From the NCBI RefSeq assembly GCF_017872555.1, contig NZ_JAEDOX010000007.1, forward strand, positions 1-64,000: a stretch of 64,000 bases of DNA, in the 5' to 3' direction. This DNA is from Ruegeria sp. HKCCSA071. Its GTDB lineage: Bacteria > Pseudomonadota > Alphaproteobacteria > Rhodobacterales > Rhodobacteraceae. Every line of letters starts with the position of its first letter. The stretch's first letter is position 1. A program made the translations under genes and the position numbers. Under the pieces are notes generated by a model. That model was not told where the DNA came from. It saw nothing but the letters and a program-made list of their open reading frames with translations, and searched no databases. Below are positions 27,639 through 42,686 of this stretch, one piece after another.

Positions 27639-27655
27639 AAAATATCATACATTAT
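27639..27655. promoter_or_regulatory. Candidate operator, degenerate AAAATATC-type site
   Basis: AAAATATCATACATTAT agrees with the perfect palindrome at 28841 in its whole left half and several right-half positions. It overlaps ATGTATG (27623-27629) / CATACAT (27646-27652), an inverted repeat with 16-bp spacing, in the divergent promoter region between the GntR gene and the first Gfo/Idh gene. Confidence 0.4.
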
Positions 27656-27759
27656 TGCGGAATCGCGAAAACCCCAATACGGTCGTGGCCAAGTTGGGCA
27701 AGCAGCCCGATCGCAATCATCGGTTTCGGGATTCGCCGGGCCCTCCAGAAGGAAGCAAA

Positions 27760-28851
27760 GTGTCTAAGAACTTTCGCATTGCCATTGTCGGCATTGGTCT
27801 TGTTGGACGCCGCCACGCAGACGCTATCCGAGCGTTGCGCCATGTTGATCTCGTCGCGGTAGTCGACCCCAGCGATGAAGGTCGCGCCTACGCCGTTGAG
27901 CACGGGGTCGCATGCTACGAGACCCTCGAGAAAATGTTTGCCAATCAGACGCCGGACGGAGCTGTTCTTGCGACCCCGACCACGCTTCATGTTGAACAAG
28001 GCCTAACGTGTGTTCGACATGGTTGTCCTGTTCTTGTCGAAAAACCGATCGCCGTAGAAGCCACCGCTGCACTTGAGCTTGTTCAAGCTGCGGAGAAGGA
28101 CAATGTGCCACTGATGGTCGGACATCATCGTCGACACAATCCTTTGATCCGGTCGGCTAAAGAAGCCATTGTCGATGGAAAGATTGGAGATGTGCGCGCT
28201 GTCCATGCGAATTGCTGGTTTTATAAGCCAGACGAGTATTTTGATGCTGCGCCTTGGAGAAAGAAACCCGGTGCAGGGCCCATCTCGGTCAATCTTGTCC
28301 ACGATGTGGATCTGCTGAGGTACCTGGCCGGAGAAGTTGTGACCGTGCAGGCTCAGTCGGCTGCATCGCAGCGGGGTTACGACAACGAAGATGTTGCCGG
28401 TGCTCTGTTGACGTTCGAAAGCGGGGCGATAGGGACCATAAGTGTGTCCGACAGCATCGTTGCTCCATGGAGCTGGGAGATGACGTCTCAGGAATATCCA
28501 ATCTATCCTTCAACCACAGAGAGTAGCTATATGATAGGTGGCTCTCATGGTTCGTTGTCCGTTCCCGATCTTCGCCTGTGGAGTTACCAGAGTAAGCTAC
28601 GGGACTGGTGGACGCCTATCTCATCGACCGCGCTGAAGAAGGGTGCGTCTGACCCTTTGGTCAATCAGCTCAGGCACTTTGTTGAAGTAGCTCGGCACGA
28701 AGCAGAGCCGATTGTGTCTGGATGGGAAGGTCTCAGAACGCTTCAAGTTATTGAAGCTATTCAGAGTTCCTGCAGAACAGGTGAAACAGTCAGGATCAAA
28801 AACTTGCAAAAAACACCAATGGTAGATATGGCGGCAGTAAAAAATATCTGA
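27760..28851 (+). CDS. Gfo/Idh/MocA family oxidoreductase (first of three)
   Basis: The 363-residue protein has an N-terminal Rossmann domain (IAIVGIGLVGRRHADAIRAL, residues about 6-25), the conserved Lys in VLVEKPIAV near 97, and a C-terminal domain with VNLVHDVDLLRYLAGEV containing the catalytic Asp/His pair. These enzymes oxidise or reduce sugars, inositols and related cyclic polyols with NAD(P). GTG 27760 is taken as start because AGAAGGAAG precedes it and the Rossmann fold begins a few residues later. It is the first plus-strand gene beside the GntR regulator and 91 bp upstream of the TRAP operon. Confidence 0.83.
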   Translation: MSKNFRIAIVGIGLVGRRHADAIRALRHVDLVAVVDPSDEGRAYAVEHGVACYETLEKMFANQTPDGAVLATPTTLHVEQGLTCVRHGCPVLVEKPIAVEATAALELVQAAEKDNVPLMVGHHRRHNPLIRSAKEAIVDGKIGDVRAVHANCWFYKPDEYFDAAPWRKKPGAGPISVNLVHDVDLLRYLAGEVVTVQAQSAASQRGYDNEDVAGALLTFESGAIGTISVSDSIVAPWSWEMTSQEYPIYPSTTESSYMIGGSHGSLSVPDLRLWSYQSKLRDWWTPISSTALKKGASDPLVNQLRHFVEVARHEAEPIVSGWEGLRTLQVIEAIQSSCRTGETVRIKNLQKTPMVDMAAVKNI

Positions 28852-28857
28852 TATTTT
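28841..28857. promoter_or_regulatory. Perfect palindromic operator (AAAATATCTGATATTTT)
   Basis: A 17-bp perfect palindrome overlapping the stop of the first Gfo/Idh gene, 85 bp before the TRAP binding-protein start. A close relative lies at 38535 before another transcription unit of the cluster, and a degenerate one at 27639. Spacing and symmetry fit a GntR-family dimer site; the GntR gene at 26899 is the nearest candidate. Confidence 0.6.
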
Positions 28858-28942
28858 GCAAAAAATCTTGCAAAAATTCCAAAATAGGTCAAAACTCTGA
28901 ATCGCAAAAAAGAAGCATCATGATGTCTCAGGGAGGAGCAAA

Positions 28943-29953
28943 GTGATTACCAAACTTACCCGCCGGGCTGCTGTATCAGCCCTTGTTGCAACCGGTGTTC
29001 TGTTTGGCGCAACAAGCGGTGCGCTGGCGGAAGACAAAGTCCAACTTCGTCTCGCAACATCAGGATCGGAGACCGACCAACGCTCGGTCGCTATGGCAGA
29101 AGTTTTTGCGCCGATGGTCGCCGATTTCGCAAGTTATGAGCCCAGCTACAATGGCACCATCTTCGCACAGGGAACGGAGTTGGATGCCATCAGTCGCGGC
29201 AATCTGGAAATGTCGATCACCTCGGCGCAGGAACTGGCGCAGTTCTTCCCCGAGTTTTCGATCTTTACTGCAGGCTATGTCCACCAGGATGCCGCGCATC
29301 AGGTGGCAGTCTTCAACGATCCCTTGATGGATGCCTTTAAGCAGAAGGCCGAAGAAGAACTAGGCGTCAAACTGCTGTCGGTCATGTATCTGGGCCGTCG
29401 TCAGGTGAACCTGCGCCAACCCAAGGACGAACTGACCGTCAGAACTCCGGCTGATCTGGAGGGTGTGAACCTGCGGATGCCGGGCACCGATGCGTGGCAG
29501 TTCCTTGGCAAAGCGCTAGGTGCTGCCCCGACACCAATGGCGTTCTCAGAGGTTTACACAGCTCTGTCGACCGGTGCCGTTGACGGTCAGGACAACCCAT
29601 TGCCGACCGTGGTTGATGCCAAGTTCTATGAAGTGACCAATCAGATCATCCTGACATCGCACTTGGTCGACTTGAACTATATCGCAATCAGCAAAGAGGT
29701 TTGGGACGGGCTGACACCGGAACAGCAAGCCAAGGTTCAGGAAGCTGCGGACGCAGCAGCTGAATCAGGCCGTCAGAAGCAACTTCAGAAAGAAGAGGAT
29801 CTTGTCAGCTTCCTGAAAGAGCAGGGCATGGATATTTACGAACCCGATCTCGCTGCGTTCCGCGATCAGGTACAGTCTATGTATCTGGACAGCGAGTTCG
29901 CTGGCTCATGGCCCGAAGGCGTTCTGGATCAGATCAACGCTCTGGGCAACTGA
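28943..29953 (+). CDS. dctP: TRAP transporter substrate-binding protein DctP
   Basis: The 336-residue periplasmic protein starts at GTG after GGGAGGAG, has a signal peptide (about 1-30, ending SGALAEDK) and DctP-family features: LRLATSGSETDQRSVAMAEV, LRMPGTDAWQFLGKALGAAP (the conserved Arg that binds the ligand carboxylate lies in the NLRMPG segment) and VYTALSTGAVDGQDNPLPTV. TRAP proteins bind organic acids, so the ligand should carry a carboxylate. It heads an operon with DctQ, DctM and dehydroshikimate-type enzymes, pointing to a quinate/shikimate-like or sugar-acid ligand. Confidence 0.9.
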   Translation: MITKLTRRAAVSALVATGVLFGATSGALAEDKVQLRLATSGSETDQRSVAMAEVFAPMVADFASYEPSYNGTIFAQGTELDAISRGNLEMSITSAQELAQFFPEFSIFTAGYVHQDAAHQVAVFNDPLMDAFKQKAEEELGVKLLSVMYLGRRQVNLRQPKDELTVRTPADLEGVNLRMPGTDAWQFLGKALGAAPTPMAFSEVYTALSTGAVDGQDNPLPTVVDAKFYEVTNQIILTSHLVDLNYIAISKEVWDGLTPEQQAKVQEAADAAAESGRQKQLQKEEDLVSFLKEQGMDIYEPDLAAFRDQVQSMYLDSEFAGSWPEGVLDQINALGN

Positions 29954-29983
29954 ACCCAGTAAGACACGGGAGGGAGAACCATA

Positions 29984-30559
29984 ATGAAAGCCTTTATCAA
30001 GGGGTTTTCCCGACTGACCGAAGCGATTGCCGGCGGGATGCTGGCGGCAATCTTCCTGATCTTCCTATTGCAAATTCTCTTGCGCTACTTCTTTACCCCC
30101 GCCGGATGGACACTTGAACTCATCGGCATTCTGTGGGTCTGGGTGATTTTCTTCAGCTGCGCTTTCATCGTGCGCGAACGGGATCACGTGAAGTTCGACA
30201 TCATCTATCTTTCGGTGCCGATGCGCGTGCGGCAGGTCTTTGCGATGCTGGCGGCCGCAGCGATCGTAGTCGGTATGCTCTACAGCTTCTTTCCGACGTG
30301 GGACTACATAGACTGGATGAAAATCCGCAAGACATCGACTGTCCGCAATCCGTTCTCCGGTGAGAAGATACCGCTGCGCACAGTATTCTCGATTTACGCG
30401 GTATTCATGCTGGTCGTAGCAGCGCGGTACGCGTGGCTATTCTTCGACGTCATGCGCAATGGCCCACCAAAGACAGAGTTGGAACTGGTCGTTGGGTACA
30501 ACGTGGTTGACGATCATCCCCGTGTCGACGTCGAAGAGAACGAGGAAGTTAAGAAATGA
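29984..30559 (+). CDS. dctQ: TRAP transporter small permease DctQ
   Basis: The 191-residue inner-membrane protein has about four TM helices and the DctQ pattern (LLQILLRYFFTPAGWTLELI; IFFSCAFIVRERDHVKFDII). A rather long charged C-terminal tail (about 165-191) is present. It partners DctM to form the Na+-driven membrane unit. It lies 30 bp after dctP and overlaps dctM by 4 bp (ATGA). Confidence 0.88.
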   Translation: MKAFIKGFSRLTEAIAGGMLAAIFLIFLLQILLRYFFTPAGWTLELIGILWVWVIFFSCAFIVRERDHVKFDIIYLSVPMRVRQVFAMLAAAAIVVGMLYSFFPTWDYIDWMKIRKTSTVRNPFSGEKIPLRTVFSIYAVFMLVVAARYAWLFFDVMRNGPPKTELELVVGYNVVDDHPRVDVEENEEVKK

Positions 30560-31851
30560 GTTTTGAACTTCTTTCCTGCCTGCTCGCTCTGTTTCTTCTG
30601 GCAGGCATCGGGACACCTATCGGCTATTCCATCCTCCTGGCCTCATTAGTGTACCTGGGCACGGCCGGACTGGACGTCGCCCTCGCGGGCGAGAAGATCC
30701 TGCAAGGCTTCTACAAAAGCACGATCCTGCTTGCCGTGCCTTTGTTCATCGTCGCCGCGAATATCATGAACGCAGGGTCGATCACGGACCGGCTGCTGAA
30801 CTTCTGCGTCGCTGCTGTCGGTCGTTTCAAAGGCGGCCTCGGGCACGTAAACGTGGTAGCGTCACTGATCTTTTCGGGTATGTCCGGCTCGGCCGTCGCG
30901 GATGCTGCGGGGATTGGGAAGATCATAATTGAAATGATGACCAAGGATGGCCGCTACAGCCGAGGCTACGCAGCTGCAATCACGGCGGCGTCGGCAACGA
31001 TCGGCCCTATTATTCCGCCTTCTATCCCGATGGTTTTGTACGCGCTCGTTTCCAAGGCCTCCATCGGGTCGCTGTTCCTCGCCGGTATTCTGCCGGGCCT
31101 GATCATGGGCGTCGTCCTCATGGCGATAAACTACTATCTGGCCGGAAAGCGGAACTTTGCATTGGAAGAACCTGTTCCACTGCGCGAATTGCCGGCTAAA
31201 ACCGCCAACGCATTTCCGGCTCTGCTGATGCCCGCAATCCTGCTCTACGGCATATATGGGGGTGTCACTACTCCGACAGAGGCCGCCGCAGTTGCTGCAT
31301 TCTACGCCCTGCTACTGGCAGCTCTGTTCTACCGCGCGCTGACCTTCCGTGGCCTTTATCAAGTGTTCGTCGACAGCGCGCGCTCTTCCGCAGCCGTCGG
31401 GGTTGTCATTGGCGGCGCGTTCATTCTGAACTTCATCGTCATTCAGGAGCAAATACCTCAGTCGATCTCGGCACTGCTGGAGGGTTCAGATGTTAGTCCG
31501 ATTGTTTTCCTGATCCTGGTTAACCTGCTGATCCTCGCGCTGGGTTGCGTGTTGGACGCGACAACGATCATTCTTGTGATCGTGCCCCTGTTCATTCCAA
31601 CCTGCGAAGCGCTTGGGATTGATCTGGTGCATTTCGGAGTGCTGGTCGTCGTGAACTCGATGATCGGTTTGATCACGCCGCCCTATGGCATTCTACTCTT
31701 TGTGATCAACGCCGTGACGGACATTCCGCTGCGTGAAATCATTTCGGAAATCTGGGCCTTCCTCGCGGTTCTGATCGTCGCCTTGGTGATCATGATACTG
31801 ATGCCGGATTTGGTCCTGTGGTTGCCGCGTATGTTTGGATATCAGGGATAA
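30556..31851 (+). CDS. dctM: TRAP transporter large permease DctM
   Basis: The 431-residue membrane protein of normal DctM length has about 12 TM helices and the family blocks AVPLFIVAANIMNAGSITDR, FSGMSGSAVADAAGIGKIII and ITAASATIGPIIPPSIPMVL. It carries out Na+-coupled import of the ligand delivered by DctP. Its TAA shares its last base with the ATG of the following dehydratase fusion (TAATG), so transporter and first catabolic enzyme are translationally coupled. Confidence 0.92.
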   Translation: MSFELLSCLLALFLLAGIGTPIGYSILLASLVYLGTAGLDVALAGEKILQGFYKSTILLAVPLFIVAANIMNAGSITDRLLNFCVAAVGRFKGGLGHVNVVASLIFSGMSGSAVADAAGIGKIIIEMMTKDGRYSRGYAAAITAASATIGPIIPPSIPMVLYALVSKASIGSLFLAGILPGLIMGVVLMAINYYLAGKRNFALEEPVPLRELPAKTANAFPALLMPAILLYGIYGGVTTPTEAAAVAAFYALLLAALFYRALTFRGLYQVFVDSARSSAAVGVVIGGAFILNFIVIQEQIPQSISALLEGSDVSPIVFLILVNLLILALGCVLDATTIILVIVPLFIPTCEALGIDLVHFGVLVVVNSMIGLITPPYGILLFVINAVTDIPLREIISEIWAFLAVLIVALVIMILMPDLVLWLPRMFGYQG

Positions 31852-33737
31852 TGTGCCTTTCGGTTTCGACAACGTCGATCCCCGGTGATCTGGCCGAAAA
31901 GCTGAGTGCTATCGCTGACGCAGGATTCGGGGGTGTCGAATTACACGAACCGGATTTGACCGCTTTTGACGGACCGCCATCGCAAGTCCGAGAAATTGCA
32001 TCGGACCTCGGCCTGAAGATTTGCCTGCTACAACCTTTCCATAACCTTGAAGGCCAGCCAGAAGCCGGACGTGAGCGCGCCTTTGATCGACTGAAGCGCA
32101 AACTCGACCTGATGAGTGAGTTGGGAACAGAATTGCTGCTTATCGGATCTGCCGTTGATGTAGATGTCGCCCCGACCGAAGAACAGGTGATCGCAGATCT
32201 TGGCGAGGCGGCCGAGATAGCAAAGGTAATGGGGCTGCGTCTGGCCTATATGGGCTTGCCATGGTCGGATCTTATTCACTCGGATGAACAGGCGTTAAGC
32301 GTCGTTGAAGCTATCGACAACCCTCATTTGGGGTTGGCCTTGAATTCCTTCTTTTCGCTTGCCGACGGGTCCAAACCAGCGCGCCTTCGGGACATTCCCG
32401 GAGAGCGGCTGTTCCATGTGCAACTGTCCGATGCACCCCGGCTTGAGATGGATATACGTCGGCTCAAACGGCACTTTGGACTTCTGCCGGGGCTTGGGTC
32501 GCTGAACCTTACTGGCTTCGTACGCGTGTTGTCCCGCGCTGGGTACAAGGGGCCTTGGTCCATTGCGCGCGTCAACGAAGCAGCTCCTCAACCCGGCGGC
32601 CGAAATCTGGCCCGAGACAGTTACAGGTCGCTGGTGAACCTCCTAGATGAGGTATCCCGGACCGAGCCGGGAACCGATTTCGGCATCCCGGACCTGCCGG
32701 AACGCGTCTATGCGTCAGGCTTCGAATTCATAGAATTTACAGCCGACGAAACAAGCGGCGCGCAGTTGGCAGATATGCTGTCAGCAATGTGTTTTCGAAT
32801 GGAGCGAAAACATGTCACCAAATCTGTCGAGCTGTGGCGGCAGGGCGCGATAAACATTGTTGTGAACACCGAAAAAGAAGGTTTTGCCCATTCGGCGTTC
32901 CTGGGTCACGGTCCCTCCGTTTGTGACATGGGGTTGCGTGTCAAAGATGCGGATCAGACGGTTCAGCGAGCGACCGCGTTGGGCGCGCCGAATTTCTCAC
33001 AGCCGGTAGGGACCGGGGAACTGGACATCCCGGCCATTCGAGGTGTTGGTGGAAATGTTGTCCACTTCATAGATGAGAAATCCGATCTGCATCGGGTTTG
33101 GGACATCGAGTTTGAGCCAGTCGCCAAAACCAAAGCGATCCAGCCTGCCGGTCTGCGCCGCATCGACCATCTGGCGCAGACGATGCGTAACGATGAGATG
33201 CAAAGCTGGCTGCTCTATTACATTTCGACTTTTGAAATGGCAAAATCCCCGATCGTGAACGTTGCCGACCCATCGGGTGTTGTGCAAAGCCAAGCCATCG
33301 AAAGCCCCGAGGGCGAAGTGCGTTTAAACCTGAATGGTGCAGTTGGGCATCGAACACTGGCGGCTTCATTCCTTGAAGACGGTTTTGGCGCCGGTGTTCA
33401 GCACATAGCCTTCCAGTCGGACGACATATTTGAAACCTCAGCCCAAATGCGGAAGTCCGGCTTTCCCAGCCTATCCATCCCAGAAAACTACTACGCTGAT
33501 CTGCAAGCGACATTCGGGTTAAGTGAAGACCTGATCGACCAAATGCGCAGGGATAACATTCTCTACGACCGCGCAGCGGGTGCCGAGTATTTTCAGATCT
33601 ACAGCCGACCAATCTTTAACGGCTTCTTCTTTGAAATTGTTGAGCGCCGATCTGGCTATTCCGGCTATGGCGCGCGCAATGCTGCGTTCCGATTGGCGGC
33701 CCAAGCGCGACACCACATGGCGGAAGGAACAACCTAA
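31851..33737 (+). CDS. quiC: 3-dehydroshikimate dehydratase-type TIM barrel fused to an HPPD-like VOC domain
   Basis: The 628-residue protein has an N-terminal sugar-phosphate-isomerase/AP-endonuclease-2 barrel (about 1-265, CLSVSTTSIPGDLAEKLSAI at the start) and a C-terminal 4-hydroxyphenylpyruvate-dioxygenase-like VOC domain (about 290-620; RRIDHLAQTM, GAGVQHIAFQSDDIFET, FFEIVERRSGYSGYGARNAA). This architecture and length match QuiC-type 3-dehydroshikimate dehydratases, which form protocatechuate. ATG 31851 overlaps the dctM stop; an upstream ATG at 31818 lies inside dctM. No protocatechuate ring-cleavage gene is in the window, so the product must be used elsewhere or the substrate differs. 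Confidence 0.85.
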   Translation: MCLSVSTTSIPGDLAEKLSAIADAGFGGVELHEPDLTAFDGPPSQVREIASDLGLKICLLQPFHNLEGQPEAGRERAFDRLKRKLDLMSELGTELLLIGSAVDVDVAPTEEQVIADLGEAAEIAKVMGLRLAYMGLPWSDLIHSDEQALSVVEAIDNPHLGLALNSFFSLADGSKPARLRDIPGERLFHVQLSDAPRLEMDIRRLKRHFGLLPGLGSLNLTGFVRVLSRAGYKGPWSIARVNEAAPQPGGRNLARDSYRSLVNLLDEVSRTEPGTDFGIPDLPERVYASGFEFIEFTADETSGAQLADMLSAMCFRMERKHVTKSVELWRQGAINIVVNTEKEGFAHSAFLGHGPSVCDMGLRVKDADQTVQRATALGAPNFSQPVGTGELDIPAIRGVGGNVVHFIDEKSDLHRVWDIEFEPVAKTKAIQPAGLRRIDHLAQTMRNDEMQSWLLYYISTFEMAKSPIVNVADPSGVVQSQAIESPEGEVRLNLNGAVGHRTLAASFLEDGFGAGVQHIAFQSDDIFETSAQMRKSGFPSLSIPENYYADLQATFGLSEDLIDQMRRDNILYDRAAGAEYFQIYSRPIFNGFFFEIVERRSGYSGYGARNAAFRLAAQARHHMAEGTT

Positions 33738-33738
33738 T

Positions 33739-34611
33739 ATGAAGGCCGCACTAATCGGACAAGGGATTTCTGGCTCCATGACGCCTGAGATGCACGAGGC
33801 AGAAGGTCGGGCGCAGGGCATCGATCTGAGCTACGGTAGGATCGACACTGCAAAAGAGCCATTTCGTGGAATGTCGGTCGCTGATTTACTGCATTATTCA
33901 GTTGAATTGGGCTGTGCGGCGGTCAACGTGACACATCCCTACAAAGCATCAGTCATTGATCATCTTGATGAGCTTTCCAAGACTGCTGAGGAGCTTCAAG
34001 CTGTCAACGCGGTGGTTTTTTGTAATGACCGAATGGTTGGCCACAACACTGATTACATTGGCTTCCACGGTGCCTTCGGAGAATTTTTAGGATCATCGAA
34101 GACTGAAACGGTTCTCATGTTTGGTGCTGGTGGCGCGGGCAGTGCAGTCTCTTTGGCTTTGCTTGATTCAGGTGTTCGAGATCTGGAGATCATTGATCCT
34201 GACTTCCACCGAGCGCAGGCGCTGGTCAGTCGACTAGAGGTCTTGCGCCCTTATGCAAAGATTCAGGGTTCCCCTTCGATTTCGTTGGATCGGATCGAAC
34301 TTGTGGACGGAGTGGTCAACGCAACACCACTTGGAATGGACAAGTACCCCGGAACAGTCATTGAACCATCCCTGTTGCGGGCCGATGCATGGGTGGCAGA
34401 TATCGTATATTTCCCGCTTGAGACACACCTACTGAGCAGTGCCCGCACAACTGGGTTGAAAGTGATGAATGGTGCTGGAATGGCCGTTCATCAGGCTGCA
34501 GCGTCTTTTGAAATCTTCACCGGCTGCACCGCCTCAATCAGTCGCCTTCAAAACGTTTTCGATTCACTTCGTCAGCAGCGCATGCGCGAGTTTAGAGGTG
34601 CAACGGTATGA
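33739..34611 (+). CDS. Shikimate/quinate dehydrogenase family protein
   Basis: The 290-residue AroE-like oxidoreductase has the catalytic Lys69 (NVTHPYKAS) and Asp105 (GHNTDYIGF), an NAD(P)-binding GAGGAGSAV near 137, and the substrate-binding stretch near residues 9-20 in variant form (GISGSMTPEMH instead of the usual HSxSPxxHN). In context it probably interconverts shikimate or quinate with the dehydro-acid used by the adjacent dehydratase, a catabolic role rather than aromatic biosynthesis. ATG 33739 lies 1 bp after the previous stop; it overlaps the next gene by 4 bp. Confidence 0.85.
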   Translation: MKAALIGQGISGSMTPEMHEAEGRAQGIDLSYGRIDTAKEPFRGMSVADLLHYSVELGCAAVNVTHPYKASVIDHLDELSKTAEELQAVNAVVFCNDRMVGHNTDYIGFHGAFGEFLGSSKTETVLMFGAGGAGSAVSLALLDSGVRDLEIIDPDFHRAQALVSRLEVLRPYAKIQGSPSISLDRIELVDGVVNATPLGMDKYPGTVIEPSLLRADAWVADIVYFPLETHLLSSARTTGLKVMNGAGMAVHQAAASFEIFTGCTASISRLQNVFDSLRQQRMREFRGATV

Positions 34612-35423
34612 CAAACGACGAGCAAGCAATCCGCCAATGGTGGCGTACCTCAATCATCGACATGAAACCCGGCAAGATCGCGTTTCGTGGCAACGCCATA
34701 GAGGACCTGATCGGGAAAGTATCTTTCCCGCAAATGATCTGGCTGATGGTGCGGGGCGAATTGCCCAGTGATGCGCAAGCACGCTTGTTCGAGGCTGCTC
34801 TGGTCGCAGGTGTGGATCACGGCCCGCAGGCCCCCTCGATCGCGGCGGCGCGCATGGCTGCCACCTGCGGGGTGGGTCTCAATAATGCGATGGCGACTGC
34901 GGTGAACATGCTGGGCGATGTGCACGGTGGAGCAGGTGAACAATGCGCAGAGCTGTATTATGATATCGCGGTCCGCATGGATGCGGGAGCTTCGCTGAAT
35001 GACGCTGTTCGGGATGGCTTGGACAGCTGGCACGAGACGTATGGCAAGATCGTATCTGGCTTTGGCCACCGTTTTCACAAGCCTGTCGACCCACGCGCAC
35101 CACGATTGATGCAACTTGTTCGTGATGCGGCGACAGAAGGTACAGTTTCTGGCTGCTTTGCCGATATCGGAGAAGAGGTTCAGTCCGAACTCGGTCGTCA
35201 ACGCGGTGGTCGGCCCATTGCCATGAATATCGACGGCGCAACAGCTGTGATCTTCTGCGAGCTTGGCTTTCCCGCGCCCTTGTCGCGGGGGCTGTTCTGC
35301 CTGTCCCGCTCGGTCGGAATACTCGCCCACGCTTGGGAACAGATGAACCAAGGTGGCCGCAACAAAGGGCCCATGCCCCCGAATTACTTACCCCTCTACG
35401 AAGACAGGAATGATGACACGTGA
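34608..35423 (+). CDS. Short citrate-synthase-like protein (citryl-CoA lyase type)
   Basis: The 271-residue protein belongs to the citrate synthase superfamily but is about 100 residues shorter than citrate synthase. The triad is retained: His106 (GDVHGGAGEQ), His154 (GFGHRFHKP) and Asp209 (NIDGATAVIF). Short members are annotated citryl-CoA lyase and are often found with other catabolic genes; they may cleave or form a C-C bond in a CoA thioester. Its place between a shikimate-dehydrogenase homologue and a Gfo/Idh enzyme is puzzling, since neither makes a CoA ester; the acylating aldehyde dehydrogenase at 39496 could supply one. Confidence 0.75.
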   Translation: MTNDEQAIRQWWRTSIIDMKPGKIAFRGNAIEDLIGKVSFPQMIWLMVRGELPSDAQARLFEAALVAGVDHGPQAPSIAAARMAATCGVGLNNAMATAVNMLGDVHGGAGEQCAELYYDIAVRMDAGASLNDAVRDGLDSWHETYGKIVSGFGHRFHKPVDPRAPRLMQLVRDAATEGTVSGCFADIGEEVQSELGRQRGGRPIAMNIDGATAVIFCELGFPAPLSRGLFCLSRSVGILAHAWEQMNQGGRNKGPMPPNYLPLYEDRNDDT

Positions 35424-36600
35424 GACATCGAAATCCTTCCGGGTCGGCCTTATCGGTTGTGGTCGTATCAGCGATATCTATTTAAAAACAATATCTAAAT
35501 TCTCAAGTGTCGAGGTCGTGGCTTGTGCAAGCCTTGATCCTTCGGAAAGCCGCGCCAAAGCGGATCAATACGGCATCGCCAAGGCCTGCACGCCAGATGA
35601 AGTGTTTGACGATCCAACGATAGACTGCGTTCTGAATCTGACAATTCCGGCGGCGCATGCGGAAATCAGTTTGCGCGCGTTGGAGGCGGGCAAGCATGTC
35701 TATTCCGAGAAGCCGCTGGTTATGAATCGAACGGATGGTAAGGCGATCCTGCACATGGCCTCTGAAAAGGGGCTCCTGGTCGGTTGCGCGCCCGACACAT
35801 TTCTGGGCGGTCGCTGGCAGACCGTTCGGCGCTTGATCGAAGAGGGTGCCATTGGCAAACCGACAGGGGTTTTTGCCCATGTCGGGACCCACGGGACGGA
35901 GCGCCACCATCCCAACCCGGATTTCTACTATAAGGCGGGTGGTGGGCCATTGCTGGACTTGGGCCCCTATTACCTGACCGCGATGATTTTTTGCCTTGGG
36001 CAAATTGACCGGGTCGCCGGAATGGCGCGGCGCACGTTCGACAAAAGGATGATCGAAAACGGCCCTCGCAGCGGCGAATGGATAGATGTCGAGGTGGACA
36101 CGCACTCTCTAAGCCTGCTGCAGTTCTCTTCCGGAGCAATAGGGTCGATGACCATGAGCTTCGACGTCTGGGACAGCGAAACCCCACGGTTCGAAATCTA
36201 CGGTGAAACCGGCACCATCAGTATCCCTGACCCTGACCCGGTTCACGGAGCCAACATCTTTCAGGGGGATGTCTGCTTGAAGACGCGGGACACCTCGCGC
36301 TGGTCTCATCAGCCTCGTCCAACTGGTCGCGAAGACTGGCAGGTGGTCGAAAACAAACACGGGTTCAATGAAGACAGCCGCGGGCTCGGCCTTTTGGATC
36401 TGGCCCTGGCGGCGCAAGAAGGACGCCAACCGCGCGCAAGTGGTTCGCTGGCCTACCATGTTTTCGAGGTGATGGACGCGATTGAGCGGGCACCGAAATT
36501 CGGGGCCTATCAGACAATAGAAAGTCGTTGCGCGGCTCCGGAGCCTTTGCCGGTCGATTTTCTGAACGGTGAGAGGAAGGAGTCGGCCCATGCCGATTGA
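35413..36600 (+). CDS. Gfo/Idh/MocA family oxidoreductase (second of three)
   Basis: About 395 residues with Rossmann motif VGLIGCGRISDIYLKTISKF near residue 11, conserved Lys in VYSEKPLVM near 97, and C-terminal GGGPLLDLGPYYLTAMIFCL. In this last motif a Tyr stands where many relatives have His (DxGxH), as in a recognised Gfo/Idh subgroup. ATG 35410 and 35413 are adjacent starts; both lie inside the end of the upstream gene. Its stop overlaps the start of the unrecognised 224-residue gene by 11 bp, so they are translated together. Confidence 0.82.
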   Translation: MTRETSKSFRVGLIGCGRISDIYLKTISKFSSVEVVACASLDPSESRAKADQYGIAKACTPDEVFDDPTIDCVLNLTIPAAHAEISLRALEAGKHVYSEKPLVMNRTDGKAILHMASEKGLLVGCAPDTFLGGRWQTVRRLIEEGAIGKPTGVFAHVGTHGTERHHPNPDFYYKAGGGPLLDLGPYYLTAMIFCLGQIDRVAGMARRTFDKRMIENGPRSGEWIDVEVDTHSLSLLQFSSGAIGSMTMSFDVWDSETPRFEIYGETGTISIPDPDPVHGANIFQGDVCLKTRDTSRWSHQPRPTGREDWQVVENKHGFNEDSRGLGLLDLALAAQEGRQPRASGSLAYHVFEVMDAIERAPKFGAYQTIESRCAAPEPLPVDFLNGERKESAHAD

Positions 36601-37264
36601 GACACTCGACTTTGCCCAGCCATTCTTTCGCGTGCAGCACATAACTGACGAGCGCAGAATTTCTATCGAGGGTCGCGCCATCGTCCTTAACCTTGGGGGA
36701 CGAAATCTCTCTGTCGAGGATCAGACCATTGCACCGCTTTCGTCTGTGATCGTGCAAGACAGCGCGTTTGACGGCGTGGAACGTGCAGTCATTGTCCACG
36801 GTTTCGACGCCCATGCCGATGACAACGAGTTGTTCGCAAAGGTGAAAGATACGTGGCCATCTGCTTTTGATATCCGCCAAGAGGAGCGTCTGCGCGGTGT
36901 CAGCCATTACATGTCGCCAAAAGTCTTTGTGGGTAATGTTGGACTGACCATGTACCATTCCGGCTCGGTCCCTTTGAATGTCGGATTGCATAAGGATCAT
37001 CCGTTCTGCCCGGTACCGGGGTTTCGCGAAGTGCATACTCAAATCGTAGGCTTCGGCAAAATGCAGCAATGCCGTGAGCGGGATGTTGAAACCCTTTACC
37101 TCGAAGAATTCATGGCCCCTGGCACGACGCACAAACCGATGTATGACGCCGAAGGCAACTATCCCTGGCATCAGTACGAGACGATTACCCCCAGCATTTT
37201 CATGGCGGTAGAAATACTACCCGAGGGGGTATGGGTCCCGAAAATGGAGGTTCAGAATGGCTGA
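36590..37264 (+). CDS. Unrecognised 224-residue protein, possibly cupin-like
   Basis: I do not recognise this family. The protein is acidic, without signal peptide or TM helix, and predicted rich in beta strands. Its second half has a loose pattern of metal-ligand-type residues: LHKDHPFCPVPGFREVHTQI near 138-157 and PGTTHKPMYD near 180, followed by YPWHQYETITP. The His-rich spacing recalls a cupin or bicupin isomerase such as IolB, but no diagnostic cupin motif is present. It overlaps the Gfo/Idh genes on both sides (11 and 8 bp), so its product probably acts stoichiometrically with them, for example as an isomerase or lactonase of the keto-polyol they make. Confidence 0.6.
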   Translation: MPIETLDFAQPFFRVQHITDERRISIEGRAIVLNLGGRNLSVEDQTIAPLSSVIVQDSAFDGVERAVIVHGFDAHADDNELFAKVKDTWPSAFDIRQEERLRGVSHYMSPKVFVGNVGLTMYHSGSVPLNVGLHKDHPFCPVPGFREVHTQIVGFGKMQQCRERDVETLYLEEFMAPGTTHKPMYDAEGNYPWHQYETITPSIFMAVEILPEGVWVPKMEVQNG

Positions 37265-38447
37265 GAGACTATTACCAGAAAACCTGAACTTTGATGGTCC
37301 TTTCCCCCGCTTGTCTCGCCGTTTGCGGTTAGGCGTTGTTGGCGGAGGACGTATCTCTGTCACGCAAGCAACGGCCGCGCGGATGACCGACCGGTGGGAG
37401 GTCGTCGCAGGAGCGCTCAGTTCTGACGCAGCTCGCAGTAAGGCGCGTGGGGCCGAGTGGTTCCTGCCGGCCGACCGGTGCTACGCGTCGTTCGAAGAGA
37501 TGGCACAGGCCGAGGCGGCACGTACGGATGGCGTAGATGCCGTCATGATCACTACCCCGAACCACGTTCATTTTGAAGGTTCCAAAGCGTTTATGGAGGC
37601 AGGTATTGATGTACTGTGCGACAAGCCCCTGACCAACGAAGTTGCCGAGGCCGAGGGGCTTGAGGAGATCGCCGCGCGCACGGGACAGGTCTTTGCCGTC
37701 GGATATGCGATGTCGTGCTTTCCAGTGATCCGGCAAGCCAAGCAAATCGTGGCCGACGGAGCTATCGGTAAAATAAACCAAATCCACGTCGAGTTCATGC
37801 AAGACTGGATGACGCCCGAAGATGTGGCTGATGCGCCTCATGTAAAGTGGCGGCTGGACCCCAAGATTTCTGGTCCAACCAGCTGTGTCGGCGATATCGG
37901 CACCCATGCCGCGCATCTCGCCAGTTTTGTCTCGGGCTTGCCCTTGACCGACCTGCGGGCCGAGTTTCATGTCTGCGGCGCGCCAAAGCCTTTGGAAGAC
38001 ACGGTGTTGATGTTCACTCGTTACCAAAATGAGGTTCCGGGAACTTTGATGGCAACACGACTTGCCCCCGGAAATCGGGGTGGGTTGCGGTTGCGGATCT
38101 TCGGGAGCGAAGGAGGTCTGGAGTGGGACTTGGAGAATTCAGAACAGCTGAAATTCAATCGGTTTGGTGAGCCGGATCGTATCATCAGCCGAGGTCACGG
38201 GCACGGTATGGGACCCGGTGCGGAACGTCTGATTCGTACCGCGCGCGGCTTTCCTGAAGGGATTATTGAAGCTTGGGCTAATCTTTATACTGAGTTCGCA
38301 ATGGCCGTAGCCGCGCGTCGGGATGGCGTAACCGTTCCGACCGATTGGCTTGCTTATCCCAGTGTCGAACAAGGCGCAGACGGTGTCCGATTCATTGACG
38401 CCTCTGTGCGCTCTCACCAGTCCGGAGGGGGCTGGGTCACTCTCTAA
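37257..38447 (+). CDS. Gfo/Idh/MocA family oxidoreductase (third of three)
   Basis: The 396-residue protein has an unusually long N-terminal lead (about 22 residues) before the Rossmann motif RLGVVGGGRISVTQATAARM, then the conserved Lys in VLCDKPLTNEV (Asp replaces the common Glu before Lys-Pro), and SCVGDIGTHAAHLASFV with the catalytic Asp/His. It resembles large myo-inositol 2-dehydrogenase-like or glucose-fructose-oxidoreductase-type members. It overlaps the previous gene by 8 bp and is followed by a strong terminator, so it closes the operon that starts at dctP. Confidence 0.83.
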   Translation: MAERLLPENLNFDGPFPRLSRRLRLGVVGGGRISVTQATAARMTDRWEVVAGALSSDAARSKARGAEWFLPADRCYASFEEMAQAEAARTDGVDAVMITTPNHVHFEGSKAFMEAGIDVLCDKPLTNEVAEAEGLEEIAARTGQVFAVGYAMSCFPVIRQAKQIVADGAIGKINQIHVEFMQDWMTPEDVADAPHVKWRLDPKISGPTSCVGDIGTHAAHLASFVSGLPLTDLRAEFHVCGAPKPLEDTVLMFTRYQNEVPGTLMATRLAPGNRGGLRLRIFGSEGGLEWDLENSEQLKFNRFGEPDRIISRGHGHGMGPGAERLIRTARGFPEGIIEAWANLYTEFAMAVAARRDGVTVPTDWLAYPSVEQGADGVRFIDASVRSHQSGGGWVTL

Positions 38448-38472
38448 GGCTCTGCCTACACGAATGTAAAAC

Positions 38473-38500
38473 ACGCCCGGGCCGTTGCCCGGGCGTTTTC
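38473..38500 (+). terminator. Rho-independent terminator after the third Gfo/Idh gene
   Basis: ACGCCCGGGC (38473-38482) and GCCCGGGCGT (38487-38496) form a 10-bp GC-rich stem with a 4-nt loop followed by TTTC. It lies 25 bp after the stop of the last gene of the TRAP-linked operon and is the clearest terminator in the window. Confidence 0.85.
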
Positions 38501-38534
38501 ATTTCCTTCCTAGCATTAAAAGTTGATATTTTAT

Positions 38535-38551
38535 AAAATACCAGATATTTT
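38535..38551. promoter_or_regulatory. Operator-like palindrome (AAAATACCAGATATTTT)
   Basis: Differs from the perfect palindrome at 28841 at two positions. A further half site GATATTTT (38525-38532) overlaps it to the left. It lies 50-66 bp before the TIM-barrel gene and just after the terminator, so it marks a second promoter of the cluster, presumably under the same regulator. Confidence 0.5.
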
Positions 38552-38600
38552 TAATAACGTGTGATGAAATAAGATTCGCAGGCACGTGGAGCTGTCGTTC

Positions 38601-39515
38601 ATGGTGAAACCCGAAGAGGCAGGCGCAAGCCCCTCTCTCTATTCTTTGGCGCATCTGACGCTGATTGGCTGTACGCCGCCCGAGTTGGTCTATATCGCCG
38701 CACGGGCCGGTTACGATGCCGTCAGTCCCCGATTTATTCCGATGCATGTGCCCGGTGAATTCAGTCAATCCCCAATCGACAAGGCACAGGTGCAGGCTAC
38801 CAAAACTGCTCTCACTACCACCGGTTTGAAAGTCCTTGATGTCGAGCTTGCGCGCATCACCGAAGATGTCGATCCGCGCAGTTTTGAGCCTTCGTTGGAG
38901 ATCGGTGGGAAACTCGGCGCCAAACGTATGATCATGAGCGCGTGGACCAACACCCGCGATGATCGTGATTTCCTGATCGACGTATATTCCGAGACCTGCG
39001 AACTGGCGGCGCCGTATGGTCTAACTGTGGACCTAGAATTTCCAAGCTTCTCTCGCTTGCGCACTCTGGATGAGGCGCTGGACATAGTCCGCGCCTCTGA
39101 TCAGCCGAATGGAGGTATTCTGGTCGATACGCTTTATCTGCACCTCAGCCGTGTGGATTTGGGAGAGCTCTTGCACGTCCCCTCAGACCTGTTTCACTTC
39201 CTGCATATCTCTGATTGCCTGCCCGGCATCGCCGATACGCGTGAGGGCATGATCCAACTGGCCCGTGATGCGCGGCTATATCCCGGTGAGGGATGGATCG
39301 ATTTCACCGGCATCATCGAACGGATGCCACCCGTCGACTATTCAATTGAACTGCCCAACCAAAGCCGCGTGGCCGAGTTGGGATATGAAGAACACGCGCG
39401 TCGCTGTCTCAGCCACGCCAAGCGAACATTCGGCGAGGCGCGGTCACAGCGTCGTATGCCCGATGCTGCAATTCCAAAACACCAAGAGGATCATCATGGG
39501 CAAAGAGCTCACTGA
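38601..39515 (+). CDS. Sugar phosphate isomerase/epimerase family TIM barrel protein
   Basis: About 304 residues of the xylose-isomerase-like / AP-endonuclease-2 family: SLAHLTLIGCTPPELVYIAA near the N-terminus, ELARITEDVDPRSFEPSLEI, the metal-binding Glu in VDLEFPSFSRL near 143, GGILVDTLYLHLSR, and FLHISDCLPG. Relatives include IolE/IolH-type dehydratases and isomerases. ATG 38601 follows GGAG; GTG 38586 is an alternative. The last 20 bp overlap the aldehyde dehydrogenase gene, and the C-terminal tail looks like an extension read into its ribosome-binding site. It probably acts on a keto intermediate produced by the Gfo/Idh enzymes. Confidence 0.8.
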   Translation: MVKPEEAGASPSLYSLAHLTLIGCTPPELVYIAARAGYDAVSPRFIPMHVPGEFSQSPIDKAQVQATKTALTTTGLKVLDVELARITEDVDPRSFEPSLEIGGKLGAKRMIMSAWTNTRDDRDFLIDVYSETCELAAPYGLTVDLEFPSFSRLRTLDEALDIVRASDQPNGGILVDTLYLHLSRVDLGELLHVPSDLFHFLHISDCLPGIADTREGMIQLARDARLYPGEGWIDFTGIIERMPPVDYSIELPNQSRVAELGYEEHARRCLSHAKRTFGEARSQRRMPDAAIPKHQEDHHGQRAH

Positions 39516-40905
39516 AAACGACTGCAACATGGCGGCCGACATGCTGGCACGCGCCCGCGCCGCCATGGCCGAGATCGAGGGTTGGGATCAGGGCAGGTTG
39601 GACCGCCTGTCCCAAGCAATCGCGTGGTATGCGGGGAACGAGAAAACCTTCACGCGCCTGGCCCAGCAAGGCGTGGACGAAAGCGGCATCGGAGATCGCG
39701 AAGGGCGTCCAGCGAAACGGTTCAAAATCCACATGGTACTGCGTGATGTCTTGCGCACGCCCTCGACGGGGATCGTCGAAGTCGACGAAGAAAAGGGGCT
39801 CGTGAAATACGCCAAACCTGCCGGTGTGATCGCATCCTTGATTCCCATGACTAACCCTGCGATGACACCGCCAGTGACCGGCGTGTCCGCCGCGAACGCC
39901 CGGAATGCGGTCATCTTCAGCCCGCACCCGCGAACCGCCCATACCACCTTTGAGATGGTCGAGGTCATGCGCGCAGCCTGCCGCGCCGCCGGTGCCCCCG
40001 AAGACCTATTCCAGTCGATCCGCAAACCATCGATCCCGTTAACACAGCACCTCATGGAGATTTGTGACCTGACACTGGCGACGGGTGGCAAGCCCATGGT
40101 CAAAGCGGCATATAGTTCAGGGCGTCCAGCCTATGGCGTCGGCGCGGGCAATTCATCCATTGTCATCGATGAGACAGCCGACTTGGACATCGCCGCTCAG
40201 AACACACGCATTTCAAAGACCTCCGACTTTGGGTCGGGCTGCTCGGCCGACGGCAACATCATTATCCAGCGTTCGGTTTACGACGATATGGTCAAGGCGC
40301 TGGAGGCCGAAGGTGGATACCTGTGTTCGGACGAAGAGAAGGCCATGCTCGAAGAGGTCATGTGGGACGAAAAGGGCAACCGCACGTTCCCGACCATCGC
40401 CTGTCCGCCTCAGCAAACGGCCAAGGTAGCCGGGTTCTCGATCCCAGAAGATCGCAAATTCCTGATGGTTGAAAATCAGGGGCAAATCGGGCCTCAGCAC
40501 AAGTTTTCGAAGGAAAAACTGACCACGCTGATGGCGCTATATCACTTCGACACATTCGATGACGCGCTGGAAACGGTCAGCCAGATCTACAACACTGGGG
40601 GCAAGGGCCATTCCTGCGGCATCTACAGCCACAATGACGATCACATCGACCGGTTGGCGCGCCTGGCTCCAGTCAGCCGCATGATGGTTCGACAGCCTCA
40701 GTCCAAGGCCAATGCGGGTGCCTGGACTAACGGTATGCCTATGACCAGCAGCCTTGGTTGCGGCATCTGGGGCGGAAACATCACCAATGAAAATGTCACC
40801 ATGAAACACATGATGAACTACACCTGGGTCAGCCGTCCGATCCCCGAGGATCGCCCCTCGGAGCAGGACCTGTTCGGTGAGTTCTACGGACAGGAGGTCG
40901 CGTGA
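39496..40905 (+). CDS. CoA-acylating aldehyde dehydrogenase (sulfoacetaldehyde dehydrogenase, SauS-like)
   Basis: The 469-residue protein matches the acylating aldehyde dehydrogenase subgroup containing SauS: KYAKPAGVIASLIPMTNPAM, GVGAGNSSIVIDETADLDIA, the catalytic Cys in TSDFGSGCSADGN near 251, GHSCGIYSHNDDH, and the C-terminal RPIPEDRPSEQDLFGEFYG. It should convert an aldehyde, NAD(P)+ and CoA to an acyl-CoA. GAGGATC precedes ATG 39496. Sulfoacetaldehyde is the characterised substrate of the name-giving member, but no sulfonate transporter, sulfite exporter or Xsc-type gene is nearby, so another short aldehyde is at least as likely. Confidence 0.82.
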   Translation: MGKELTENDCNMAADMLARARAAMAEIEGWDQGRLDRLSQAIAWYAGNEKTFTRLAQQGVDESGIGDREGRPAKRFKIHMVLRDVLRTPSTGIVEVDEEKGLVKYAKPAGVIASLIPMTNPAMTPPVTGVSAANARNAVIFSPHPRTAHTTFEMVEVMRAACRAAGAPEDLFQSIRKPSIPLTQHLMEICDLTLATGGKPMVKAAYSSGRPAYGVGAGNSSIVIDETADLDIAAQNTRISKTSDFGSGCSADGNIIIQRSVYDDMVKALEAEGGYLCSDEEKAMLEEVMWDEKGNRTFPTIACPPQQTAKVAGFSIPEDRKFLMVENQGQIGPQHKFSKEKLTTLMALYHFDTFDDALETVSQIYNTGGKGHSCGIYSHNDDHIDRLARLAPVSRMMVRQPQSKANAGAWTNGMPMTSSLGCGIWGGNITNENVTMKHMMNYTWVSRPIPEDRPSEQDLFGEFYGQEVA

Positions 40906-42686
40906 TGGACGGAGCGAAACTGGACGGCAAAACCGTTGCCGAACATATCGTTGACTTTCTCGAACGCCGTGAGGTCAAGCACGTTTTCGGCCTGTGCGGG
41001 CACACGAACATTGCGGTTCTGGCTGCGCTGGCGGAAAGTTCCATCGATTTCGTCACAGTACGACACGAACAAATCGCCAGCCATGCGGCGGACGCTTATG
41101 CCCGCGTGACGGGCAAGGCCTCGGTGGTCTTGTCCCACCTCTCCCCGGGGCTGACTAACTGCGCCACCGGGGTCGCCAACGCGGCACTGGACTGTATCCC
41201 GATGGTGGTGATCGCAGGCGATATTCCCACGCATTACTACGGCAAACATCCGCATCAAGAGGTGAACCTGCACGCAGACGCTGCCCAGTGGGAGATCTAT
41301 CGCCCCTTTGTCAAACGCGCTTGGCGGGTAGATCGGGCAGACCTGATGGCCGAGATTCTGGAAAAGGCGTTTCACCTCGCCGAAAGCGGCCAGCCCGGGC
41401 CGGTGCTTGTCAATGTGCCGATGGACATCTTCTCCGAGGTGATCCCCTCGGACAGCTTCGACCGTATCCGAGATAACACGCGCGTGCTCAAAAAACCGTC
41501 GATTGACGATGAAACAGCGCGAGAGATTGTCGAAGCGTTGGCTACAGCCGAAAACCCGGTTGCTTACGTCGGCGGTGGTATCCTTCTGGCGAAAGCCAGT
41601 CAGGAGTTGCGCGAGTTCGTTGAACATTTGGGCTTGCCCGTCGCACATTCCCTGATGGGCAAAGGTGCGCTGCGGGACGACCACCCACTTGTGCTAGGAA
41701 TGACTGGGTTTTGGGGCACCGAATTGGTAAACCAATCCTGCCTGAATGCGGACTACATCTTTGCCGTGGGAACACGGTTTAAAGAGGCAGATTGTTCCAG
41801 CTGGTATCCTGGCTATACGTTCAACATCCCCGGGTCCAAGGTCATTCATATCGACATTGAACCGCAGGAGATTGGTCGGAACTATCCCACCGAGATCGGA
41901 GTCGTTGCTGACGCCAAGGCCGCGTTACGTGTCCTCAATCGGGTCGCCCGCGAGATGTATCCGGACGGTTTCAACCGCCCCGCGCTGGAACAGAAGATCG
42001 CAGACTTCCGAACGGACTTCAAAGCGCGCAACGTGGACATGGCGACCTCATCGGCCTTTCCGATGATGCCCGAGCGCATTCTGGCAGATACCCGCAAGGC
42101 ACTGCCCGAGGATGCCATCATCACCACGGACGTTGGGTGGAACAAGAACGGTGTCGGACAGCAATTTAATATCCTGACCCCCGGTTCAATCCTGACCCCG
42201 GGCGGGTTCGCGACGATGGGCTTTGGCCCTCCGGGAGCGATCGGCGCAAAACTGGCAGCCCCTGACCGTGTGGTGATAAGTCTTGTTGGCGATGGGGGGT
42301 TCGGTCAGAACCCGTCGATGCTGGCAACCGCGGTCGAGCTTGATCTGGGCATTATCTGGCTGGTTATGAACAACAACGCCTTCGGCACTATCGCGGGCCT
42401 TCAAAAGGCGCATTACGGTCTGACATATGGGACCACGTTCCCCGGATCAGCCGCAGCTCCTGCAAACGGACCGGGTTATGCAGACATTGCACGAGCTTAT
42501 GGTGCAGAAGGGCACAGGCTTAGTGCTGCTGATGAATTGTTGCCCGCATTGGAAGCGGCAATCGCCAGCGGCAAACCAACCGTTCTTGATGTCCCAATGA
42601 TCAACAATCCAACACCAACGACCGGGCACTGGAACATCTTGGACATTTACTCACCCGACAAAGAGATCTCTCACGTGGCGACCTGA
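40905..42686 (+). CDS. Thiamine-diphosphate-dependent enzyme (acetolactate synthase-like)
   Basis: The 593-residue three-domain ThDP enzyme has an N-terminal Pyr domain with the activating Glu in FVTVRHEQIASHAADAYAR near 53, a central domain (about 200-340), and a C-terminal PP domain with the cofactor motif GDGGFGQNPSM ... NNNAFG near 463-490. It resembles acetolactate synthase and 2-oxoacid decarboxylase/lyase families, not sulfoacetaldehyde acetyltransferase (Xsc). ATG 40905 follows AGGAGG with 7-bp spacing. As last gene after an acylating aldehyde dehydrogenase it may cleave a 2-keto or diketo intermediate to the aldehyde which that enzyme then oxidises, as IolD opens a diketone in inositol breakdown. 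Confidence 0.82.
   Translation: MDGAKLDGKTVAEHIVDFLERREVKHVFGLCGHTNIAVLAALAESSIDFVTVRHEQIASHAADAYARVTGKASVVLSHLSPGLTNCATGVANAALDCIPMVVIAGDIPTHYYGKHPHQEVNLHADAAQWEIYRPFVKRAWRVDRADLMAEILEKAFHLAESGQPGPVLVNVPMDIFSEVIPSDSFDRIRDNTRVLKKPSIDDETAREIVEALATAENPVAYVGGGILLAKASQELREFVEHLGLPVAHSLMGKGALRDDHPLVLGMTGFWGTELVNQSCLNADYIFAVGTRFKEADCSSWYPGYTFNIPGSKVIHIDIEPQEIGRNYPTEIGVVADAKAALRVLNRVAREMYPDGFNRPALEQKIADFRTDFKARNVDMATSSAFPMMPERILADTRKALPEDAIITTDVGWNKNGVGQQFNILTPGSILTPGGFATMGFGPPGAIGAKLAAPDRVVISLVGDGGFGQNPSMLATAVELDLGIIWLVMNNNAFGTIAGLQKAHYGLTYGTTFPGSAAAPANGPGYADIARAYGAEGHRLSAADELLPALEAAIASGKPTVLDVPMINNPTPTTGHWNILDIYSPDKEISHVAT

Follow-up and report, generated by a model that had tools for sequence, protein, structure and literature searches.

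What is degraded by a gene cluster that joins a TRAP carboxylate importer to ring-type oxidoreductases, a thiamine diphosphate (ThDP) enzyme and a relative of citryl-coenzyme A (CoA) lyase, and do its genes form one pathway at all? The cluster occupies positions 27,760–42,686 of the window, a 64,000-nucleotide stretch of contig NZ_JAEDOX010000007.1 from the 4.1-Mb genome of Ruegeria sp. HKCCSA071, and its nearest named relatives are found in Ruegeria species (ThDP protein 95–97% identical). A preliminary description had suggested a single catabolic unit for a cyclic polyol or a cyclohexane carboxylate. Here we propose, with a probability of about 0.5, that the cluster is a regulon through which quinate and related hydroaromatic acids are taken up and broken down by a non-aromatic route; we infer both the substrate and every step. 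The computed support consists of one operator motif, a conserved gene set, conserved catalytic residues and two mutually exclusive lyases.

Profile searches (Pfam and NCBIfam) place 13 genes on the forward strand, mostly overlapping or adjacent, in the order gfo1, dctP–dctQ–dctM, a QuiC-type fusion gene, an AroE-type gene, ccl, gfo2, a bicupin gene, gfo3, tim, aldh and thdp. The enzyme families named in the preliminary description (TRAP importer, QuiC-type fusion, AroE-like dehydrogenase, three Gfo/Idh/MocA oxidoreductases, TIM barrel, ThDP enzyme, acylating aldehyde dehydrogenase and citrate-synthase-like protein) are all present in this one direction; it had missed the bicupin, a divergent GntR/FCD regulator and three copies of an operator. 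This palindromic operator, with a AAATATCWGATATTT core, precedes gfo1 (27640–27657), dctP (28839–28858, the exact palindrome AAATATCTGATATTT) and tim (38536–38553). Allowing at most one mismatch, a pattern that had been fitted to the three sites and their relatives before the scan occurs at three places in the whole genome, all in the cluster; at two mismatches there are five more matches, one being the opposite strand of the dctP copy, and a reversed control pattern has none in the genome. Within the window, up to three mismatches yield four extra matches outside the three sites. A strong terminator-like hairpin with a T tail (38473–38496, forward strand; 10 pairs, 9 of them G–C) separates gfo3 from tim, although the region has no excess of such hairpins (16 found against 16.8 in shuffles). 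The best interpretation of the cluster is one regulon of three transcription units under one motif. That motif stands before every unit and, with no more than one mismatch allowed, is confined to them in the whole genome; this speaks against a mere collection of unrelated units and is in keeping with the single catabolic unit first suggested. The regulon is probably GntR-controlled: the divergent gene at 26899–27561 (reverse strand; Pfam FCD 71.1 bits, GntR 54.5 bits) encodes the likely regulator, which would bind the operator, and a homologue occurs in 26 of 80 related loci, divergent in many.

These 80 loci from named genomes are the best 80 of 577 relatives (597 stretches) retrieved with a four-sequence ThDP alignment, and are numbered here with an L prefix. 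Group A comprises the 63 loci whose ThDP enzyme is at least 75% identical to that of the window, group B the other 17, and L004–L007 are counted apart from the 80. Several loci lie on cut contigs. Flanks end at 10 kb, so that the numbers given for upstream genes (gfo1, for example) are lower bounds. The core comprises the ThDP enzyme (80 loci), the aldehyde dehydrogenase (79) and the TIM barrel (73), accompanied by the QuiC-type protein (65), dctM (59), ccl (55), gfo1 (at least 28) and a window-like AroE (27). Since this core recurs in 80 named loci of other genomes, the cluster is not a chance assembly. Its compact form (L029, L037, L038, L042 and L046) runs from a GntR gene through gfo1, dctPQM, quiC, ccl, tim and aldh to thdp; in group B (L076, L081 and L085) the order is aroE, TRAP genes, a gene of the 3-hydroxy-3-methylglutaryl-CoA (HMG-CoA) lyase type, tim, aldh, thdp and quiC. 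A small alphaproteobacterial genome, apparently that of L055, carries the gene set of the window minus quiC and aroE. The ThDP gene is rare, occurring (own genome included) in 5 of 398 sampled Pseudomonadota genomes, all five in the same family as the host, and in 19 of 394 genomes of that family. One genome, Aliiruegeria lutimaris DSM 25294, has both a group A (L049) and a group B (L072) ThDP locus.

The operator follows the same division. Among group A loci with an available upstream region, it was found (at most three mismatches, within 220 bp upstream) before tim in 52 of 54, before dctP in 17 of 22 and before gfo1 in 14 of 19, against a background of 3.0% (379 of 12,600 windows placed at random, with true sites not removed). 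Group B loci gave none by the same measure (0 of 14 tim, 0 of 4 dctP and 0 of 4 gfo1 genes); upstream regions of reverse-oriented genes (L057 and L067) were not handled in this survey, and a few of its rows may be distorted.

The reaction type of the pathway is suggested by its lyases. The ccl protein (34608–35423, forward strand) passes the citryl-CoA lyase model NF004864 (433.9 bits, cut-off 261), matches the solved citryl-CoA lyase 6hxp at 146 bits and keeps H106, H154 and D209, which we take to be catalytic, in all 55 sequences aligned. In group A, 54 loci encode a lyase of the citryl-CoA type and none one of the HMG-CoA type; in group B the numbers are 1 and 15. Either lyase is thus found in 70 of the 80 loci (55 and 15, respectively) and both together in none. 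Neither reaches 80 bits in 10 loci, several of them on cut contigs, and with a 120-bit threshold for the HMG-CoA type eleven loci are without a lyase, the L088 match being a 94.7-bit fragment. The group B lyase, represented by that of L080, passes the HMG-CoA lyase model (290.7 bits, cut-off 246) ahead of a second-best match to the homocitrate synthase NifV (101 bits), and has HMG-CoA lyases as its best solved relatives (207 bits). Citryl-CoA and HMG-CoA lyases have unrelated folds, and both split a 3-hydroxyacyl-CoA substituted at C3 into acetyl-CoA and an oxo compound. That the two exclude each other next to one and the same tim–aldh–thdp trio argues that the thioester of the pathway is a C3-substituted 3-hydroxyacyl-CoA, and ccl is likely to catalyse the terminal step, its reaction type betrayed by the HMG-CoA-lyase-like replacement in relatives.

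Quinate would supply such a thioester, as it carries a tertiary C(OH)COOH centre flanked by CH2 groups, which is what a citryl-CoA-type thioester needs. The AroE-family protein (33739–34611, forward strand) passes PRK12549 (312.6 bits, cut-off 235). In the Protein Data Bank (PDB) its top match, at 221.4 bits, is 3jyo, which carries the label quinate/shikimate dehydrogenase; 2nlo, labelled shikimate dehydrogenase and probably the same enzyme, follows at 221.1 bits, and the next match scores 131.1 bits. Against the NCBIfam quinate/shikimate model NF010631 it reaches 234.7 bits, below the cut-off of 515. K69 and D105, presumably the catalytic lysine and aspartate, are invariant across 30 sequences. 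The gene is a second copy in its genome, another shikimate dehydrogenase being encoded on contig 27, and 9 of 11 genomes whose loci lack AroE have one shikimate dehydrogenase (L011, L012, L029, L037, L038, L042, L046, L055 and L073). AroE or AroQ genes occur in 32 of the 80 loci, and in Azoarcus a shikimate dehydrogenase and a type I 3-dehydroquinate dehydratase (AroD) directly follow thdp. In a SAR324 locus (L065, 12019–13744) thdp is followed by two AroQ dehydroquinases in tandem and by another TIM barrel. With a solved quinate/shikimate dehydrogenase as the nearest match of the AroE protein, quinate or shikimate is favoured over inositol-type polyols, and a cyclohexane carboxylate is the likelier of the two substrate classes first suggested.

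On this basis we propose the following scheme. The TRAP importer (DctP 28943–29953, DctQ 29984–30559 and DctM 30556–31851, forward strand; Pfam) would take up a quinate-type acid, and the AroE-type enzyme or Gfo1 would oxidize the C3 alcohol of quinate to give 3-dehydroquinate. Gfo1 (27760–28851, forward strand; Pfam), a likely ring-alcohol dehydrogenase whose best solved relatives are 3q2i and 3q2k, falls below the cut-offs of all listed NCBIfam models. The tim protein (38586–39515, forward strand; Pfam), a TIM barrel of the IolI/IolE/dehydroshikimate dehydratase superfamily, would then act as a 3-dehydroquinate dehydratase, removing the C5 hydroxyl by metal-dependent β-elimination to yield 1-hydroxy-3,4-dioxocyclohexane-1-carboxylate. 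IolE and dehydroshikimate dehydratase perform such β-eliminations, and elimination of the C4 hydrogen with the C5 hydroxyl is the same as that of dehydroshikimate dehydratase. The metal-type site is intact: across 57 rows, E151 and D181 are kept in 55, and H/Q207 and E255 in 56, the remainder being gaps. Hydrolytic cleavage between the two carbonyls by the ThDP enzyme (40902–42686, forward strand; three TPP domains), in which E56, G463-D464-G465 and N491 are invariant across 85 sequences, would open the ring to OHC-CH2-C(OH)(COOH)-CH2-CH2-COOH. The acylating aldehyde dehydrogenase (39496–40905, forward strand), with C251 invariant across 77 sequences, would convert this aldehyde to homocitryl-CoA, and ccl would split it into acetyl-CoA and 2-oxoglutarate, in effect running the homocitrate synthase condensation backwards. 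All seven carbons would thereby reach central metabolism, with no oxygen used and no aromatic compound formed on the way. If we assume the names to be right, a priority-rule check indicates that (1R)-3-dehydroquinate would give the configuration of (R)-homocitrate. The broad course sketched in the preliminary description, namely ring oxidation, dehydration or isomerization, ThDP cleavage to an aldehyde and then acyl-CoA formation, is supported, its individual steps standing as proposals.

Two further features of related loci bear on the scheme. A single ring-type oxidoreductase was found, among the homologues searched, in eight loci in which not every flanking gene is annotated: Gfo1 in L029, L037, L038, L042 and L046, and AroE in L076, L081 and L085. 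These loci fit a scheme with one oxidation. In addition, L004–L006 (Azoarcus KH32C, Streptomyces and Nonomuraea) encode a CaiB-type CoA transferase together with ccl and thdp, and show no aldehyde dehydrogenase match within the 32–38 kb examined around the locus; the best model for the Azoarcus CoA transferase is succinate–glutarate CoA-transferase, below its cut-off (311.9 versus 750 bits). This alternation of aldehyde dehydrogenase and CoA transferase fits a second, looser swap consistent with an acyl-CoA step. Taken as a new way of using quinate or shikimate, with oxygen-independent ring opening through a 1,2-dione, cleavage of homocitryl-CoA to acetyl-CoA and 2-oxoglutarate by two independently recruited lyase families, and thioester formation in two ways (acylating aldehyde dehydrogenase or CoA transferase), the route is a tentative proposal to which we give slightly less than even odds.

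Several observations weigh against it. No AroE is seen in 34 of the 54 group A loci with ccl, so that the link to quinate rests on a subset of loci and on Gfo1, a putative ring-alcohol dehydrogenase; and two AroE-less loci depart from the pattern of the other nine in that their genomes have two (L065) or three (L075) shikimate dehydrogenases. The CoA-transferase swap is not strict, as a CaiB homologue also accompanies the aldehyde dehydrogenase in 5 of the 80 loci. Among solved ThDP enzymes, the window protein scores higher against acetolactate synthase (255.8 bits) than against cyclohexane-1,2-dione hydrolase (176.8 bits, rank 36). The fold search with the tim model returns as nearest by E-value the isomerase IolI (1i60; template-modelling (TM) score 0.73) rather than a dehydratase, followed by Lmo2234 (0.74–0.75); the scores against QuiC1 (5hmq) and IolE are 0.70–0.71 and 0.64–0.65, and the search fails to separate dehydratase from isomerase. 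An HpaI/GarL-type aldolase gene lies 3′ of thdp in 9 of the 80 loci, within about 30 bp of its end in L021, L022, L027, L029, L036, L037, L038 and L060 and after one intervening gene in L030. Two parts of the cluster, the trio of Gfo2, bicupin and Gfo3 and the conserved HPPD-like domain of the QuiC-type protein, would have no step to perform, and the own genome keeps PcaH, encoded on the contig that carries the cluster.

The aldolases are the starting point of the competitor that survives best. An HpaI-type aldolase would be idle if the product were 2-oxoglutarate, which favours, at least in those nine loci, 4-hydroxy-2-oxoglutarate and hence retention of the C5 hydroxyl; possibly the aldolases mark a 4-hydroxy-2-oxo acid as the product in those genomes. 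Quinate would then be oxidized twice to the 3,4-dione, and tim would be an isomerase in the manner of IolI. The lyase would release acetyl-CoA and 4-hydroxy-2-oxoglutarate, the latter being split by an aldolase into pyruvate and glyoxylate. The nearness of the tim model to IolI suits this course, as does the supply of oxidoreductases in the window (AroE and three Gfo enzymes). The same superfamily, however, also contains dehydratases, in several loci the homologue searches turned up a single ring-type oxidoreductase, and 71 of the 80 loci, some on cut contigs, show no HpaI-type aldolase. We regard retention of the C5 hydroxyl as unlikely, albeit a serious contender.

Might the AroE and QuiC-type proteins simply convert quinate or shikimate to protocatechuate, leaving the remaining operon to another substrate? 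AroE adjoins the QuiC-type protein (31851–33737, forward strand), which aligns over its full length with QuiC1 5hmq (487 bits) and consists of a TIM barrel and an HPPD-like VOC domain. It falls below the curated QuiC cut-off (533.6 versus 1200 bits), a strict threshold that also leaves out the proteins of L006 (585.0) and L079 (367.2). QuiC1 is from P. putida, and the ten active-site residues listed for the dehydratase include Glu134, Asp165, His168, Gln191 and Glu239 (PMC7442255). At these five scored positions of the ten the window protein has M, N, F, Q and A, four of them changed, and among 69 aligned QuiC sequences the 53 of group A (window included) keep the Glu134 equivalent in none, the Asp165 equivalent in one and Glu239 as Glu in none and as Asp in two. 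The fusion noted in the preliminary description is thus confirmed as a two-domain QuiC-type protein, but it is probably not a working dehydratase, and with these residues lost it is unlikely to make protocatechuate. In group B (n = 13), E-D-H-Q-E/D is found in 7 and E-G/S/N-H-H-E in 6 sequences, and the proteins of L072 and L076, which retain the dehydratase residues, would be compatible with the protocatechuate route. Ring-cleavage enzymes were scored in 50 carrier genomes (49 of the 80 locus genomes and the own genome, some possibly incomplete): PcaH is above its cut-off in 23, own genome included, and LigA, which is not protocatechuate-specific, in 6 of the 27 without PcaH, leaving 21 of 50 with neither of these two enzymes, the only ones scored. 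Given the degenerate dehydratase site and these 21 carriers, protocatechuate is probably not the purpose of the cluster; we rejected the plain protocatechuate route on the same grounds, to which the single operator motif before all units adds, and consider it quite improbable.

The other half of the QuiC-type protein (32700–33737) seems to be under maintaining selection, as its His-His-Glu triad, presumably catalytic, is kept in 53 of 53 group A and 67 of all 69 sequences. A QuiC-type C-terminal domain was not found in the genomes of L055, L065 and L073; those of L058, L080 and L083 encode one elsewhere. Retention of this half on a decayed group A barrel provides a lead on the role of the domain in QuiC enzymes generally, which is still described as unknown (PMC7442255).

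The lyase swap by itself requires only a tertiary 3-hydroxyacyl-CoA, so another marine carbocycle with a tertiary alcohol, for example the 4-deoxygadusol core of mycosporine-like amino acids, could instead be degraded to a 3-hydroxy-3-substituted glutaryl-CoA. Judging by species names and titles, the hosts seem to be mostly marine, some of them from invertebrates, and the minimal locus needs no AroE. Such a substrate would not account for the AroD of Azoarcus or for the 32 of 80 loci that have AroE or AroQ genes, and Streptomyces and Nonomuraea also have the ThDP enzyme, lyase and AroE; we hold it to be a shade less probable even than the protocatechuate route. Least likely of all is an Iol-like pathway for an inositol-type polyol, which the Gfo/Idh/MocA enzymes, the IolI-like TIM barrel and the ThDP enzyme would suit, and which we rejected because no protein exceeds an Iol cut-off among the matches listed (IolG 142.9 versus 355 bits for Gfo1; IolE and IolD not among them, with 25 of 52 listed for the ThDP protein), no IolB-, IolC- or IolJ-type Pfam family is found among the cluster genes, uptake is by a TRAP importer and a citryl-CoA/HMG-CoA-type lyase has no place there. 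Sulfoacetaldehyde metabolism was also rejected: the SauS-like aldehyde dehydrogenase misses the cut-off of the SauS model NF047625 (428.6 versus 600 bits), and no other sulfonate-type family is found among the Pfam matches of the cluster.

Gfo2 (35410–36600), the bicupin (36590–37264) and Gfo3 (37257–38447), all on the forward strand, share one set of 32 loci among the 80 and may be accessory proteins that feed in a further substrate. Gfo2 and Gfo3 were assigned by Pfam, and Gfo3 scores 96 bits against the levoglucosan dehydrogenase model (cut-off 650). The bicupin, of 224 amino acids, has no Pfam or NCBIfam match, and a PDB sequence search gave two chance-level matches. Its AlphaFold model (predicted local distance difference test score 88.7) has BacB and OxdC as best fold matches, with cupins and bicupins at TM scores of about 0.3–0.37. 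BacB and AerE act on prephenate-derived rings, and the weak likeness in fold to them is a hint. A bicupin gene was detected in the own genome and one other of 289 sampled genomes of the class. Beyond the cluster, positions 43307–48914 hold mostly opposite-strand genes (an APH-like kinase, two class-III aminotransferases and an IclR regulator), followed by the gene of a TctC-type binding protein on the forward strand; genes beyond 43,300 seem to belong to another unit.

The breakdown of quinate and shikimate is usually portrayed as supplying protocatechuate for ring cleavage that depends on oxygen. If the proposed route is true, direct opening of the saturated ring would conserve all carbon and need no oxygen, which would explain the carriers in which no protocatechuate dioxygenase was found and would suggest a function for a subfamily of citryl-CoA lyases. 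Fermenting quinate degraders were isolated about 1990, and anaerobic use of hydroaromatic compounds has been an open question since; the same route may serve fermenting and denitrifying hydroaromatic degraders, and the scheme offers direct tests of how anaerobes use these compounds. In agreement with the preliminary description, which knew of no single pathway with this set of genes, word searches of the open-access literature found no description of such a cluster. Its parts belong to known families; what is new is their assembly and the terminal retro-Claisen step.

Four known systems define this position. With the QsuABCD/QuiABC conversion of quinate and shikimate to protocatechuate, the cluster shares an AroE-family dehydrogenase and a QuiC-type two-domain protein; it differs in the degenerate dehydratase site of group A and adds ThDP cleavage, an acylating aldehyde dehydrogenase and an acyl-CoA lyase, and it would need no ring dioxygenase. 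The logic of myo-inositol catabolism (IolG–IolE–IolD) is similar, comprising oxidation by a Gfo-type enzyme, dehydration by a TIM barrel to a 1,2-dione and hydrolytic ring cleavage by a ThDP enzyme. In the cluster, however, CoA activation and retro-Claisen cleavage would take the place of the final IolB/C/J/A steps, and none of its proteins passes an Iol model among the matches listed. Cyclohexane-1,2-dione hydrolase of Azoarcus 22Lin offers a parallel, being a ThDP enzyme that turns a cyclic 1,2-dione into an oxo acid by opening the ring, although the window enzyme is nearer to acetolactate synthases and gives no sign of orthology. Citryl-CoA and HMG-CoA lyases, finally, agree with the lyases of these loci in family membership, catalytic residues and the presumed splitting of a 3-hydroxy-3-substituted acyl-CoA into acetyl-CoA and an oxo compound, and the cluster departs from them in its genomic setting and in its proposed substrate, homocitryl-CoA.

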